From: Marinococcus luteus
Lineage (GTDB): Bacteria > Bacillota > Bacilli > Bacillales > Marinococcaceae
Length of the DNA: 64,000 nt
Direction of reading: 5' to 3'
Assembly: GCF_900106595.1 (NCBI RefSeq)
Contig: NZ_FNNC01000005.1
Span: 124,001 to 188,000, forward strand
The notes beneath the pieces were generated by a model. The model was not told the origin of the DNA. It saw only the letters and a program-made list of their open reading frames with translations, and did not search any database. The position numbers and the translations under genes are program-made. Of the stretch, positions 9,665 through 13,399 are shown one piece after another. The stretch's first letter is position 1. Every line of letters starts with the position of its first letter.

Positions 9665-9687
9665 TTGTGTTAGATTATCTTACACAA
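9665..9687 (+). promoter_or_regulatory. GlnR/TnrA box upstream of amtB
   Basis: Bases 9668-9684 read TGTTAGATTATCTTACA, a full match to the Bacillus GlnR/TnrA consensus TGTNANAWWWTMTNACA. The dyad extends outward to TTGTGT...ACACAA. A TAAAAT -10 element at 9713-9718 would put the transcript start near 9725, placing the box centre at about -49, the position from which TnrA activates promoters in B. subtilis. The rest of 9510-9787 shows no other recognisable element apart from the second box at 9735. Confidence 0.8.
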
Positions 9688-9734: not shown

Positions 9735-9751
9735 TGTTAACTAAGTTCACA
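9735..9751 (+). promoter_or_regulatory. Second, weaker GlnR/TnrA-type box
   Basis: TGTTAACTAAGTTCACA keeps the core TGTNA-N7-TNACA but misses three consensus positions in the middle. It would lie just downstream of the predicted start site (about +18), a position suited to repression. Confidence 0.5.
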
Positions 9752-9787
9752 TGAGTCTTGCACGATAATAACAGAGGGGGAAAAAAC

Positions 9788-11068
9788 GTGGATCCGATAG
9801 TATTGCTTGATAACCTTTGGGTTATGATTGGATTTATTTTAGTTATTCTTATGCAGGGTGGATTTATTCTATTGGAAGCAGGTTCGACCCGGATGAAAAA
9901 CGCGGGTCACATTGCAGGAAAGACGATCTTTACACTGGGAATTTCCTCACTTGTCTTCTGGGCTGTCGGGTACGGTTTTATCTATGGTAACGATGTCGGA
10001 GGCATTATTGGACTTTCGAACTTCTTTTACGGGGATGCCAGCACTGCAGACGGTTTAACGCCTGCCATCGACTTTATCTTCCAGCTGGCGTTTGCAGCGA
10101 TTGCCCTTACGATTGCTTTTGGCGGCTTCGCTGAACGTGCAAAGCTTGCTGCTTACGTAGTATTCGCCATTTTATTCTCTGCTATTGTATACCCGCTAGT
10201 TGCACACTGGATCTGGGGCGGCGGCTGGATTTCCGGTCTTGGCAAACAGGACTTTGCCGGTTCCACAGTAGTCCACCTCACTGGTGCAATGGGTGCTCTT
10301 GCGGCAACGATTTTACTTAAACCGCGTATTGGGAAATACAATAAAGACGGTTCGGTCAACAATCTTCCAGGTCACAACCAGGTATTCACTGCTTTAGGTG
10401 TGCTTCTGCTGTGGGTCGGCTGGTTCGGCTTTAACGGTGCCAGTACATTTGGTGTAGCAGACGGATTCTTTGGTTACGTTTCTATGAACACGCAGCTTGC
10501 AGCTGCAGCGGGTGCTTTTGCAGCACTTCTGATTGCCTGGGCAGTGCTTGGGAAAGCAGACGTACCAAGCATGCTTAACGGAGCACTTGCAGGGCTTGTA
10601 GCAATTACCGCTTCCTGCGCATTTGTAGCTCCTTGGGCTTCTGTAGTTATCGGCGCAATCGGCGGTATGATCTGCTTCTTCAGCGTTCGTTTCTTCGAAA
10701 AACGCAACATCGACGATCCGATTTTCGCCCTTTCAGTGCACGGTATGGCGGGTGCCTGGGGAACAATTTCAACCGGCTTCTTTGCCACACCACAGCTTGC
10801 TGAAATGAACGGCGGCCGTGCCGGGTTGTTCTACGGCGGCGGATTAACCCAGCTTGGTGTACAAATTATCAGTGTAGTAGCGTGCGGGCTGTTTGCATTT
10901 ATTGCTTCGTACATTCTGCTCTTAATTACGAAATCGATTATCGGCGGACTTCGCGTATCGGAAGAAGAAGAAATCATGGGTCTTGATATGAGTGAGCACG
11001 GTGCATACGGCTATCCGGAAAACGTGCAGCCTACCAATGGCAATTCTTCAGAAAGAACAGGAGCATAA
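9788..11068 (+). CDS. amtB: Ammonium channel Amt
   Basis: A 426-residue Amt/MEP/Rh channel with 11 predicted helices. Family signatures are present: QGGFILLEAG in helix 1, AFGGFAERAK, FAGSTVVHLTGA with one pore-lining His, and the twin-His partner in ALSVHGMAGAWG. The GTG at 9788 follows AGAGGGGG. It imports ammonium in nitrogen limitation, which agrees with the upstream GlnR/TnrA box. Unlike B. subtilis nrgAB, no GlnK/PII gene follows; a nucleotidyltransferase gene starts 3 bases after its stop. Confidence 0.96.
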   Translation: MDPIVLLDNLWVMIGFILVILMQGGFILLEAGSTRMKNAGHIAGKTIFTLGISSLVFWAVGYGFIYGNDVGGIIGLSNFFYGDASTADGLTPAIDFIFQLAFAAIALTIAFGGFAERAKLAAYVVFAILFSAIVYPLVAHWIWGGGWISGLGKQDFAGSTVVHLTGAMGALAATILLKPRIGKYNKDGSVNNLPGHNQVFTALGVLLLWVGWFGFNGASTFGVADGFFGYVSMNTQLAAAAGAFAALLIAWAVLGKADVPSMLNGALAGLVAITASCAFVAPWASVVIGAIGGMICFFSVRFFEKRNIDDPIFALSVHGMAGAWGTISTGFFATPQLAEMNGGRAGLFYGGGLTQLGVQIISVVACGLFAFIASYILLLITKSIIGGLRVSEEEEIMGLDMSEHGAYGYPENVQPTNGNSSERTGA

Positions 11069-11071
11069 AAT

Positions 11072-12085
11072 ATGTCGAATTCTTCATTCTCACAAACACA
11101 GGGATTTTCAGCAGAACCTTCCTTTAAGAGCTATGAAGAAATAAAAAAAGACAAAGAAGAGAAGATGGACGATTTGGCGGGAGAGCCAGTAAAGCTTAAT
11201 GAAGCCCACGATACGTGGATTTCAGAAACGGTTACTCTTGCTGTTCATCATCATCAGAGTGAGCGGGGAGATCTTCCTGCTCACTTTGCTTTTTTTCTTA
11301 TGGGAAGCGCAGGAAGACAGGAACAGGCGAAGTTCAGTGATCAGGATCACGGTATTGTTTTTGAAGGGACAGACGACGAACATCAGGATTATTTTCTCGG
11401 CCTGGGAGCGGAAATACGTGAAGGAATGGCGATCGTTGGATACCCGCGCTGTGAAGGGCTGGTCATGGCTTCGCATAAACGCTGGTGCCACGGAGTGGAA
11501 GGGTGGAAAAAGCAGGTGGACGGCTGGATTGAAGCCGATGAATGGGGGCCGTTCCGCCACCTGCTCACCTTTATCGATGCCAGGACGCTTGTGGGAGAAG
11601 ATGAGCTGCTTGAGGAAGTAAAGGAGCATGTATTCGAGCAGGCCGGCCGGGGCGATGTGCTAAAACGATTATCAGAAAATACCGCATATCTGCATAAAGG
11701 GCTCAACGCTTTCGGCCAGCTTCTCCCGGAAGAAAAAGGGCAGTACGCAGGCTCGATGCACATTAAAGATGTTGGATTTTTTCCATACGTTCATGCCCTG
11801 CGCCTGCTCGCCATCTATGAAGGAATCCATGCTTCCTCCACGATAGAACGCATCCGGCAGGTGTCGGAAAAACACTCCTATGTGAAGGGCAAGGACGTGC
11901 ATTTTAAAAATCTGCTGGAGCTGCGGGCTTCATTTTCCAAAAAACAGCATGCCTATGAAGACGTTCACTATGTGCCGGTGCAGCAGCTTTCGAAAACACA
12001 GAAGTCCGAGCTGAAATCTGCATTAAAAGAAGGAAAGCACTTGTTTCAGCATACAAAAAAAATCATGGAGTCGGGTGATTTTTAA
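11072..12085 (+). CDS. DUF294-type nucleotidyltransferase (GlnD-like catalytic domain)
   Basis: A 337-residue protein. Residues about 55-150 form a nucleotidyltransferase domain with GSAGRQEQ followed by SDQDHGI, the Gly-Ser and Asp-x-Asp metal motif shared with GlnD and DUF294 proteins. The C-terminal half fits the helical DUF294 substrate-binding domain (LRLLAIYEG, LLELRASFSKKQ). There are no CBS domains, which many homologues have at the N-terminus, and no HD domain. It is sandwiched between amtB (3-base gap) and an exonuclease gene (no gap). The target is unknown; by analogy with GlnD it may attach a nucleotide to a protein, possibly to tune ammonium uptake. Confidence 0.85.
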   Translation: MSNSSFSQTQGFSAEPSFKSYEEIKKDKEEKMDDLAGEPVKLNEAHDTWISETVTLAVHHHQSERGDLPAHFAFFLMGSAGRQEQAKFSDQDHGIVFEGTDDEHQDYFLGLGAEIREGMAIVGYPRCEGLVMASHKRWCHGVEGWKKQVDGWIEADEWGPFRHLLTFIDARTLVGEDELLEEVKEHVFEQAGRGDVLKRLSENTAYLHKGLNAFGQLLPEEKGQYAGSMHIKDVGFFPYVHALRLLAIYEGIHASSTIERIRQVSEKHSYVKGKDVHFKNLLELRASFSKKQHAYEDVHYVPVQQLSKTQKSELKSALKEGKHLFQHTKKIMESGDF

Positions 12086-12793
12086 ATGTTCCAATGGATG
12101 CGCAGTATTTCGAGTCGATTTGGCGGTCTGGACTCCACGAATCCCCAGCATCAGTCTTTTATGCGTCAGCTGCAAAAAGACGTAAAGGCAGAACAGCCTC
12201 TGCAGAAATCGCTGTCTTCGCTGAACGTCACCGTCCTTGATCTGGAAACCTCGGGCTTTAACGCGGACGCCGGAGATAAGATATTGTCGATGGGAGCTAT
12301 TAAAATTAAACACAACCGGCTGGTTCGGGACGATGCCTTTTATACGCTTGTTCATGAACCGGAGGCTGTGTCTCCGGAGGTAAGCGAAGTCACCGGCTTA
12401 ACAGCGGAAGAATTGGAAGCAGACGGTCAGTCGATCAGCGAGGCGCTCGAGCAGTTCTATCAGTTTGCCCAGGCAGATATACTCGTAGCCCATCACGCCT
12501 CCCACGAACGAAAGTTTCTGCAGAAGTATACGTACCGGACGATGGGGACAAACCTTCAGCATCGCCTGCTCGATACTTCGTTTGTGTTCAGTATTGCTGC
12601 GCCGGACTTTGAATTTCGTTCGCTCGATGACTGCTGCAACTATTACGACATTCCGATAAAAGGCAGACACAATGCCCTCGGCGATGCCATTATGGCCGCT
12701 GAGCTCTGGACACGCTCCATCCAGACGGTACAGGAGCTTGGCTATGAGACGCTTCAGGACGTATATGCACATCTCAGCCACCGCCGGAGGTAA
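12086..12793 (+). CDS. DEDDh-type 3'-5' exonuclease domain protein (DnaQ-like)
   Basis: A 235-residue protein with an RNase T/DnaQ fold: ExoI motif VLDLETSGF (first Asp and Glu), ExoIII motif RHNALGDA (His and last Asp). In ExoII the usual HNAxFD is [10 protein letters not shown], so the second Asp is replaced by Glu. It starts directly after the stop of the nucleotidyltransferase gene, which implies coupled translation. It may remove nucleotides added by its neighbour, or act on nucleic acid; both are inference. It is not the polymerase III proofreading subunit, judging by this context. Confidence 0.85.
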
Positions 12794-12837
12794 CCCCTTA
12801 CGGCAGGCTGAAAAAATTTATAAAGGAGGAGGGCGCG

Positions 12838-13095
12838 GTGAAAGGTAATATTCCTCGTAACGCTGCTTGTTTTCCCATTAGCGTGGTACAAGAAATCACA
12901 TCATTGTCAGCTCGCCAAATCCGTTACTACGAAGAACAGGGGTTGATCAATCCAGAGCGAAACCAGGGGAACCAGCGCCTGTTTTCGATGAATGATATTG
13001 ATCGGTGTCAGGAAATCAAAGAGCTTATCGACCAGGGGTTAAATATTGCCGGCATCAAAGCCGTGCTCTCCGTCCGTGATAAGAATTCAAGTTGA
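12838..13095 (+). CDS. Short GlnR/TnrA-family MerR-type regulator lacking the C-terminal domain
   Basis: An 85-residue protein whose winged-helix domain closely follows Gln[23 protein letters not shown], then [12 protein letters not shown] and [12 protein letters not shown]. GlnR is about 135 residues; this one stops right after the DNA-binding domain and lacks the tail that senses feedback-inhibited glutamine synthetase. The bases after the stop do not look like a frameshifted remainder. The GTG follows AAAGGAGGAGG. It lies 44 bases after the exonuclease gene with no terminator between, so it is probably the last gene of the amtB operon. Confidence 0.85.
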
Positions 13096-13213: not shown

Positions 13214-13399
13214 ATGTCATTTATCATAGTAGAAGATATTCAAGTGCCGGCGAAAAAATTCGACGAGCTTGAAAACGCCCGTGAAGACGCATCGGAAAAG
13301 GAAGTCATTGTCCGCAATAACGATGGCCAGTACTGGGTGATTGACGAAGAAGACTACGCGAAGATCGAAGCCTACGGCTATGAGCTTGTAGAGAAGTAA
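13214..13399 (+). CDS. Small acidic protein of unknown function
   Basis: A 61-residue soluble protein with many Asp and Glu residues and no membrane segment or metal motif. It has an excellent ribosome site (ACGGAGGTG) and its own terminator, so it is probably translated. The pattern of FIIVEDIQVP, then VRNNDGQYWVI and DEEDYAKI suggests a small alpha/beta fold. I do not recognise the family. The upstream SigmaB-like promoter suggests a general stress role. Confidence 0.75.
   Translation: MSFIIVEDIQVPAKKFDELENAREDASEKEVIVRNNDGQYWVIDEEDYAKIEAYGYELVEK

Follow-up and report, generated by a model that had tools for sequence, protein, structure and literature searches.

An ammonium channel operon of Bacilli that carries a GlnE/DrrA-fold nucleotidyltransferase and a DEDDh-type exonuclease

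The operon described here lies in a 64,000-nucleotide stretch of the Marinococcus luteus genome (contig NZ_FNNC01000005.1, positions 124,001 to 188,000), hereafter the window. Its genes for an ammonium channel (Amt), a short DUF294 protein of GlnE/DrrA-type transferase fold and a DEDDh-type exonuclease form a conserved head-to-tail set with GlnR/TnrA-type boxes upstream (Table 1). The transferase and the exonuclease, referred to as the pair, are associated with one clade of Amts, to which the GlnK-linked Amts do not belong. They may constitute an old, PII-independent control module for this clade in Bacilli, in which the two enzymes operate a covalent switch; we regard this reading as a serious possibility that stays slightly short of probable. 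An earlier note on the same DNA interpreted the two enzymes as a possible write/erase pair giving PII-free control of uptake, and its interpretation is partly supported.

Table 1. Features of the ammonium channel operon and its upstream region, in window positions.
Feature	Position	Strand	Basis
GlnR/TnrA-type box 1, TGTTAGATTATCTTACA	9668..9684	.	exact TGTNAN7TNACA
GlnR/TnrA-type box 2, TGTTAACTAAGTTCACA	9735..9751	.	exact TGTNAN7TNACA
amt, ammonium channel, DUF294-linked clade	9788..11068	+	PF00909, TIGR00836, tree group 100/98
Short DUF294 + DUF294_C nucleotidyltransferase, no sensor domains	11072..12085	+	PF03445, PF10335, AlphaFold2, Foldseek, GSX10DXD
Predicted RNA hairpin within the DUF294 coding sequence, followed by CTTTTTTTCT (terminator-like)	11255..11288	+	fold energy, covariation
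DEDDh-type 3´-5´ exonuclease, Glu at the motif II Asp position	12086..12793	+	PF00929, NF005836, Foldseek
MerR protein, GlnR/TnrA type, 85 aa	12838..13095	+	PF13411

The four genes follow one another head to tail; the gaps between them measure 3, 0 and 44 bases, in agreement with the earlier note. The start of amt is a GTG (9788; stop at 11068), with a TTG at 9758 as the alternative start of the open reading frame (ORF). The Amt product matches Ammonium_transp in Pfam (PF00909, 1e-114) and exceeds the cut-off of TIGR00836 in NCBIfam. DUF294 (PF03445, 1.7e-29) and DUF294_C (PF10335, 2.5e-20) match the transferase, both over the Pfam cut-off; no NCBIfam model reached its cut-off with this protein. 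The exonuclease is matched by RNase_T (PF00929, 3.5e-24) and by NF005836 (PRK07740; 261.8 bits, cut-off 261), and the last gene product by MerR_1 (PF13411, 3.4e-19). The window genome encodes one Amt and one DUF294 protein, the latter 93% identical to that of Marinococcus halophilus, the nearest named record. The boxes previously noticed ahead of the operon are two exact matches to TGTNAN7TNACA, the GlnR/TnrA consensus; five such matches occur across the whole 64 kb. In 71/80 of the named loci introduced below, the region around the start of amt (-350 to +60) contains at least one exact box, compared with 1.4% of mononucleotide shuffles and 0/80 coding stretches.

DUF294, PII and Amt were searched in a main sample of 61 genomes, comprising the window genome and 60 relatives, and the coordinates were joined. 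Amts in this sample were classed as DUF294-linked when a DUF294 protein of fewer than 400 codons lay directly downstream. The 61 Amt matches comprised 28 with DUF294 downstream, 21 with PII adjacent, none with both and 12 with neither. An exonuclease gene followed DUF294 in 28/28 Amt-linked loci, the window included. Among 80 named loci, which are the best 80 of 578 confirmed relatives and represent about 29 genera, amt lay upstream in 80/80 and the exonuclease downstream in 79/80, the remaining locus (L183) having DUF294 without the exonuclease. A 29th short DUF294 frame, in genome G016, does not adjoin Amt and is a frame-interrupted long form between symporter and exonuclease genes. Across the phylum, 32 of 149 genomes contained a DUF294 match, and the short form occurred only in the window genome and three others of the same class, in which amt again lay upstream and the exonuclease downstream. 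The order amt-DUF294-exonuclease is not due to chance; the set is of old standing in Bacilli and is strongly conserved there. A lack of such conservation in related genomes is what the earlier note would have counted against its proposal, and the proposal withstood this check.

The set is separate from PII. By genome, the main sample divides into 19 with the set and no PII, seven with the set and only unlinked PII-like matches, two with the set and a second Amt linked to PII, 18 with a PII-linked Amt only, six with an Amt linked to neither and nine without Amt. The window genome gave no match to PF00543 (PII), for which 13/14 control genomes were positive. PII was also searched in 50 set-bearing genomes, corresponding to 50 of the 80 named loci: 24 had none, 16 had weak matches only (at most 56 bits) and 10 had a strong glnK (70–101 bits), which in all 10 cases adjoins a second Amt of 37–43% identity. 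A hidden Markov model built from 14 glnK proteins was positive in 19/19 control loci, 14 of which were its training loci, and in 0/232 loci of the DUF294-linked Amt clade (0/114 viewed on both sides, 0/118 on the downstream side only). The 114 both-side loci comprise the 80 named loci, six without the pair and 28 located via coordinates, and these sets overlap in species; 78/80 named loci show at least 1 kb upstream of amt, and the 118 later loci at most 98 bases. Amt, DUF294 and DnaQ-type genes co-occur without an adjacent glnK: none of the 28 DUF294-linked Amts is PII-adjacent. By the standard of amtB-glnK operons at large, a PII gene would be expected at the place of the two enzymes; this Amt, however, belongs to a clade that was never seen beside PII. 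Compared with amtB-glnK (nrgAB) and its PII plug, the operon is alike in placing a channel gene beside a putative regulator gene under GlnR/TnrA-type control. It differs in that two enzymes are encoded, and no PII gene is adjacent in the examined clade loci or in the window genome.

In a tree, the DUF294-linked Amts form one group against the PII-linked Amts (29 and 30 rows, support 100/98). Six of the 12 Amts linked to neither partner belong to the DUF294-linked clade (L091-L095 and L098); they are nested at several places within it, a pattern suggesting that the pair was lost repeatedly. Among the remaining six are two frames that are 778 and 793 codons long; the frame that was scanned encodes an Amt-chemoreceptor domain fusion. 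There are also two Amts of PII type with no PII gene beside them, a divergent Amt and a fragment. The short Amt-linked DUF294 proteins (32 rows) likewise fall on one side of a branch, with 49 long ones on the other (support 99/91; 100% of 200 bootstrap trees). From the single Amt group and the single short-DUF294 group, it looks as though the pair was recruited once, long ago, and kept by most descendants. In a wider sample, 139 of 249 genomes of the order contained an Amt at E≤1e-125, and 118 places not seen before were fetched, with one fragment omitted. DUF294 lies directly downstream in 92 of these and the exonuclease too in 91; three more have DUF294 about 1.1–1.3 kb downstream, and one contig ends. 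Decaying copies were also observed: L345, one of 22 places where about 2 kb contain no DUF294, has an exonuclease remnant after amt, and in L349, one of the 92, DUF294 is truncated and the exonuclease is missing.

The neighbours might be held together for reasons of expression, as a frozen operon without joint function. The losses of the pair in several Amt lineages favour this. The order is nevertheless conserved across the class Bacilli, an exonuclease signature described below is specific to the Amt-linked group, and in the remnant loci L345 and L349 both genes are damaged or missing together, a point tempered by L183, in which DUF294 persists without the exonuclease. We consider a frozen operon to have a slender chance of being the explanation.

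The AlphaFold2 model of the DUF294 protein, computed from 42 sequences, has a predicted local distance difference test (pLDDT) of 92.7 and a predicted template modelling score (pTM) of 0.90. A Foldseek search of the PDB returned four matches in total at E≤0.001: two chains of the E. coli GlnE adenylylation domain (3k7d, template modelling (TM) scores 0.64 and 0.65), DrrA (6yx5, TM 0.60) and the GlnE N-terminal domain (1v4a, TM 0.61). All four are enzymes that add or remove nucleotides on proteins, as the titles of the hits in part also indicate. The next match was a TUTase (E 0.013, TM 0.18). GlnE, the glutamine synthetase adenylyltransferase, and DrrA share only 12–14% identity with the DUF294 protein, which is a single transferase unit. 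No convincing sequence relative of DUF294 was found among solved structures, a GH110 match at 0.002 being taken as chance. The model thus bears out the prediction of a protein-nucleotidyltransferase fold, of GlnE/DrrA type (TM 0.60-0.65). The motif GSX10DXD is present in 32/32 short, 49/49 long and 80/80 named DUF294 sequences, and G78, S79, D90, D92, D169 and R171 are invariant in the 42 aligned sequences.

The protein had been called GlnD/DUF294-like. Pfam supports the second half of that name, while the predicted fold is GlnE/DrrA-like instead of GlnD-like. GlnD carries HD and ACT domains; in the 337-residue transferase only DUF294 and DUF294_C exceeded the Pfam cut-offs, and no HD or ACT domain did. 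GlnD is the wrong comparison because, according to a 2015 review, no PII modification had been reported in Firmicutes (PMC4285133). Another parallel is MntA of the HEPN/MNT toxin-antitoxin system, described as transferring three 3´-5´ linked adenosine monophosphates (AMPs) to a tyrosine of HepT with a GSX10DXD motif that the DUF294 protein shares (PMC7641770). DUF294_C has been grouped with the HEPN domains (PMC3710099). Here, by contrast with MntA, the HEPN-like domain is fused to the transferase and an exonuclease is added. A 3´-5´ linked AMP chain such as MntA builds could be shortened by a 3´-5´ exonuclease.

The exonuclease model (pLDDT 91.1) matches the exonuclease domains of DinG, DnaQ, PolC and RNase T in Foldseek. 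The DxE and final H-x4-D motifs of DEDDh exonucleases are kept in 79/79 named loci. At motif II, the acidic position is occupied by Glu within AHHxxHE in the window protein and in 79/79 named loci. Among aligned relatives, with the near copies L002-L004 left out, 23/25 have HE, and five divergent Amt-linked exonucleases (L027, L028, L215, L224 and L225) have HD. Conversely, 20/20 exonucleases of 180–300 residues from long-DUF294 stretches have FD. On this comparison of HE/HD with FD, the His before the acidic residue marks the Amt-linked group, and the Glu its larger part.

The departure from the canonical Asp would be compatible with non-catalytic enzymes that, for example, form a docking complex plugging the channel like GlnK. 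Conversely, the catalytic-type residues listed above for the transferase are invariant, and so are D52, E54, E141, H195 and D200 of the exonuclease in 41 sequences, so that we give this explanation the slimmest of chances. The pair could instead act on a nucleic acid or a small nucleotide, with the transferase making or tailing an oligonucleotide, the exonuclease degrading it and the product binding the transporter. The nearest relatives of the exonuclease are genuine nucleases (PolC, DinG, DnaQ and RNase T), and the two long DUF294 proteins scanned carry the nucleotide-binding domains cNMP and CBS. The fold search speaks against such a substrate: no RNA-tailing enzyme or CD-NTase matched at E≤0.001, and among the matches listed, those to TUTase, aminoglycoside-transferase and CD-NTase structures all lie at E≥0.013, with TM (query) no higher than 0.31. 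We judge it improbable.

Fold and motif together point to a protein nucleotidyltransferase, and the neighbouring genes point to a target related to transport. In the covalent-switch reading, a change in nitrogen status would cause the transferase to attach at least one nucleotide to a component protein of the uptake machinery, with Amt or one of its partners as the likeliest target. The exonuclease would remove the attached nucleotides from the 3´ end, an oligonucleotide chain on tyrosine being a natural substrate for a 3´-5´ enzyme, and uptake would be switched covalently instead of by a PII plug. This write/erase reading is plausible and unproven.

Several observations weigh against it. Six of the first 34 Amts of the clade lack the pair. 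Of 117 assessable further ones, 22 show no DUF294 gene over about 2 kb of downstream sequence, and one more has a truncated gene. About a fifth of the clade is thus without the pair, so that the channel can do without it and a need for the pair is not supported. Amt itself as the substrate, one of the targets suggested by the earlier note, is not borne out by the residues considered, since neither a tail motif nor a loop residue tracks the pair. The C-terminal YGYPE is present in 68/68 pair-linked and 0/21 PII-linked Amts; as a modification site it was dropped, Y417 being found in 163/163 linked and 31/32 unlinked Amts of the enlarged set. At position 198, 71/71 pair-linked Amts had Gly and 3/6 pair-less Amts had Arg, a difference dropped as weak and not independent of descent. 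With the 118 further loci, the linked Amts had 158 Gly, four Lys and one Arg and the unlinked Amts 26 Gly, three Arg and three Lys, so that the correlation weakened to 158/163 versus 26/32; the unlinked group in these enlarged counts still included L312, L350 and L351, which have DUF294 further downstream. The GlnE N-terminal domain is a deadenylylase, and the fold therefore distinguishes neither writer nor eraser. The short DUF294 protein has no sensor domain, which leaves the nitrogen signal unexplained. Moreover, a mutant in a long relative, pflu5625 of Pseudomonas fluorescens, is described as having no phenotype (PMC5715377).

The target could also be another protein, such as glutamine synthetase or the GlnR/TnrA-type regulator, with amt merely co-expressed under nitrogen limitation. 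The MerR gene at the end of the operon bears on this. Its 85-residue product scored 62.1 bits with the TnrA model of NCBIfam, under the cut-off of 140, and its best NCBIfam match was HspR (67.3 bits, below the cut-off). A PDB search made with a 124-residue relative (L006) matched GlnR and TnrA structures. Eleven relatives from outside the genus carry the protein, with 88–127 residues, so that the window protein is shorter than most; by its predicted DNA-binding domain it is classed as a GlnR/TnrA-type regulator. Such a gene lies downstream in 16/28 Amt-linked loci of the main sample and in 32/80 named loci, and a separate GlnR-type gene precedes glutamine synthetase elsewhere in the window genome. 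Both facts favour a target other than the uptake machinery, as does the nearness of the fold to GlnE. Conversely, Amt is adjacent in 80/80 named loci and the MerR gene in 32 only, and paralogous pairs often lie beside symporters, which argues for transport. The adenylylated type of glutamine synthetase has an NLYDLP loop; in its place the organism's own enzyme reads NIYVMEKAE, and glutamine synthetase is not favoured as the target. Overall, a different protein target is unlikely, though not to be dismissed.

A predicted RNA hairpin within the DUF294 coding sequence is an addition to the earlier note, which missed it. A terminator scan identified a GC-rich stem of 15 pairs followed by a T tract (Table 1); terminator-like matches in the region were not above shuffles (6 versus 5.0). 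The predicted folding energy of positions 11254-11290 is -23.3 kcal/mol (z -5.4). Across 154 different short DUF294 sequences, folding at this site is stronger than in synonymously recoded versions (mean z -1.68, median -1.96; mean energy -12.4 versus -7.9 kcal/mol), whereas 10 long DUF294 sequences that could be anchored show no extra folding there (mean z 0.05). Along the gene, in 39 of the 154 sequences, there is a single dip, in neighbouring windows with z of -1.94 and -1.61, compared with -0.61 to 0.65 elsewhere. For the pair counts, the register was fixed according to the window hairpin. The observed pairing of 74.3% lies above every one of 500 codon-column permutations (mean 72.1, highest 73.2). 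In a subset of 43 sequences, formed by taking every second of 86, pairing reaches 77.1% of cells, a value that 0/500 shuffles attain; slid registers give at most 57.4%. In this subset 29 cells are changed on both sides versus 15.4 expected (0/500 shuffles). Neither the six pairs with change on both sides (matched by 210/500 shuffles) nor the further pair types (21/500) stand out. Kinship among the sequences may inflate counts of this kind. Ten to 13 of 13 pairs form in 32/43 sequences, and two to seven in 11, including Neobacillus, Mesobacillus and Robertmurraya. RNAalifold returned no structure for the 154 hairpin sequences, and Rfam no family up to E 1. Taken together, these computations indicate a hairpin that is conserved, covarying and specific to the clade. 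Across relatives, T is no more favoured in the tract than codon use would predict (Phe TTT 0.77 after the stem and 0.77 in the rest of the gene), which leaves termination, RNA processing and 3´-end protection as possible roles. Under the covalent-switch reading, the hairpin would lower expression of the transferase relative to Amt, through termination or mRNA processing.

The same two families occur beside Na+/solute symporters, as the earlier note had stated for acetate/solute symporters in Proteobacteria. Twenty hand-picked stretches, containing 21 of the 30 long DUF294 genes from the main-sample search, were examined. A symporter-type ORF lies directly upstream in 14/21 places and is missing from the other seven; a marker string identified 12 of the 14, and inspection by eye added L193 and L204, the latter with a split ORF. 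The exonuclease is the next ORF downstream in 19/21. In one such cluster, Pfam assigned DUF4212, SSF, cNMP + CBS + DUF294 + DUF294_C and RNase_T. Four plasmids were hand-picked from 61 records with a match. A Salinivibrio plasmid has sodium/sugar symporter, DUF294 and exonuclease genes near galK and galM, and a Skermanella plasmid has DUF4212, symporter and DUF294 genes followed by a ‘hypothetical’ one. In a Hymenobacter plasmid, exonuclease and DUF294 genes adjoin no transporter, and in a Paracoccus plasmid a major facilitator superfamily gene precedes DUF294, with an exonuclease-domain gene further on. These clusters resemble the Amt operon in uniting a transporter, DUF294 and mostly an exonuclease; they differ in their long DUF294 protein with sensor domains, their FD exonuclease and their transporter. 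Two Pseudomonas loci, pflu5625 and PA3232-PA3235, were counted with them, and the latter presumably holds DUF294 and nuclease genes. PA3232-PA3235 is described as containing ActP (PMC9765439). For the long form, protein nucleotidylation has been predicted, with credit given to Aravind and Koonin 1999 (PMC5715377). A second long-DUF294/exonuclease group has no transporter directly upstream (L192, L196, L200, L202, L203 and L206); some of these adjoin aspartokinase- or leucine-dehydrogenase-like genes, as judged by eye from ORF starts. A decaying copy, L103, has a frame-interrupted long DUF294 in a symporter cluster.

Other arrangements were observed around Amt and PII. A 773-codon Amt frame suggested an Amt-DUF294 fusion and was rejected, the fetched locus having separate ORFs. 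Long C-terminal parts occur in the Amts of L099:3135-5510 (G017), where Pfam assigns a methyl-accepting chemotaxis signalling domain and the protein is possibly an ammonium chemoreceptor, and of L100:1957-4272 (G030). Many PII-linked Amts of Bacilli (e.g. L032-L044) have, by eye, an extra tail with a recurring L-x-x-RL[DN] that is absent from the DUF294-linked Amts. Nine loci of the main sample with weaker PII matches were read. Those of L052, L053 and L055-L058, some in tandem in one frame, adjoin membrane proteins that we take to be DUF1538-type, and not Amt. L050:457-1812 encodes a 335-residue membrane protein followed by a 109-residue PII-like protein, presumably a pair resembling SbtA-SbtB. 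The PII-like protein of L054 lies among other membrane proteins, and the match of L059 falls inside a 373-residue protein, presumably Nif3-like. Between the operon and a nicotinate phosphoribosyltransferase gene lies a 61-residue ORF (13214-13396) without a Pfam or NCBIfam match.

The gene set itself is already on record. Footnote d of a table in a 2012 paper states that amtB is apparently in an operon with a DUF294-domain gene and dnaQ (PMC3412718), the marked rows including Anoxybacillus and Geobacillus. That footnote concerns the same set and says nothing of its function, the exclusion of PII, the fold, the change at the active site or the hairpin. No functional study of the amt-DUF294-exonuclease set was found in the open-access literature, which leaves out most subscription papers, and within that literature PMC3412718 was the only paper found in which DUF294 occurs together with ‘ammonium transporter’.

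For an Amt clade never found beside PII, with 24/50 of the genomes checked giving no PII match, the shut-off of ammonium uptake is either absent or effected by another device. The operon supplies two testable proteins for such a device and, in the exonuclease, a specific candidate for a nuclease that erases protein nucleotidylation. In its fullest form, which we hold to be rather doubtful, the proposal is that Amt of Bacilli, or a partner, is switched by reversible (oligo)nucleotidylation. A GlnE/DrrA-fold writer would be opposed by an exonuclease turned de-nucleotidylase as eraser, the hairpin would set the ratio of channel to enzyme, and the operon would represent one branch, that for Amt, of a module used by transporters at large. 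If so, ammonium uptake in a large part of Bacilli would be under nucleotidylation control, and the same module would serve Na+/solute symporters.

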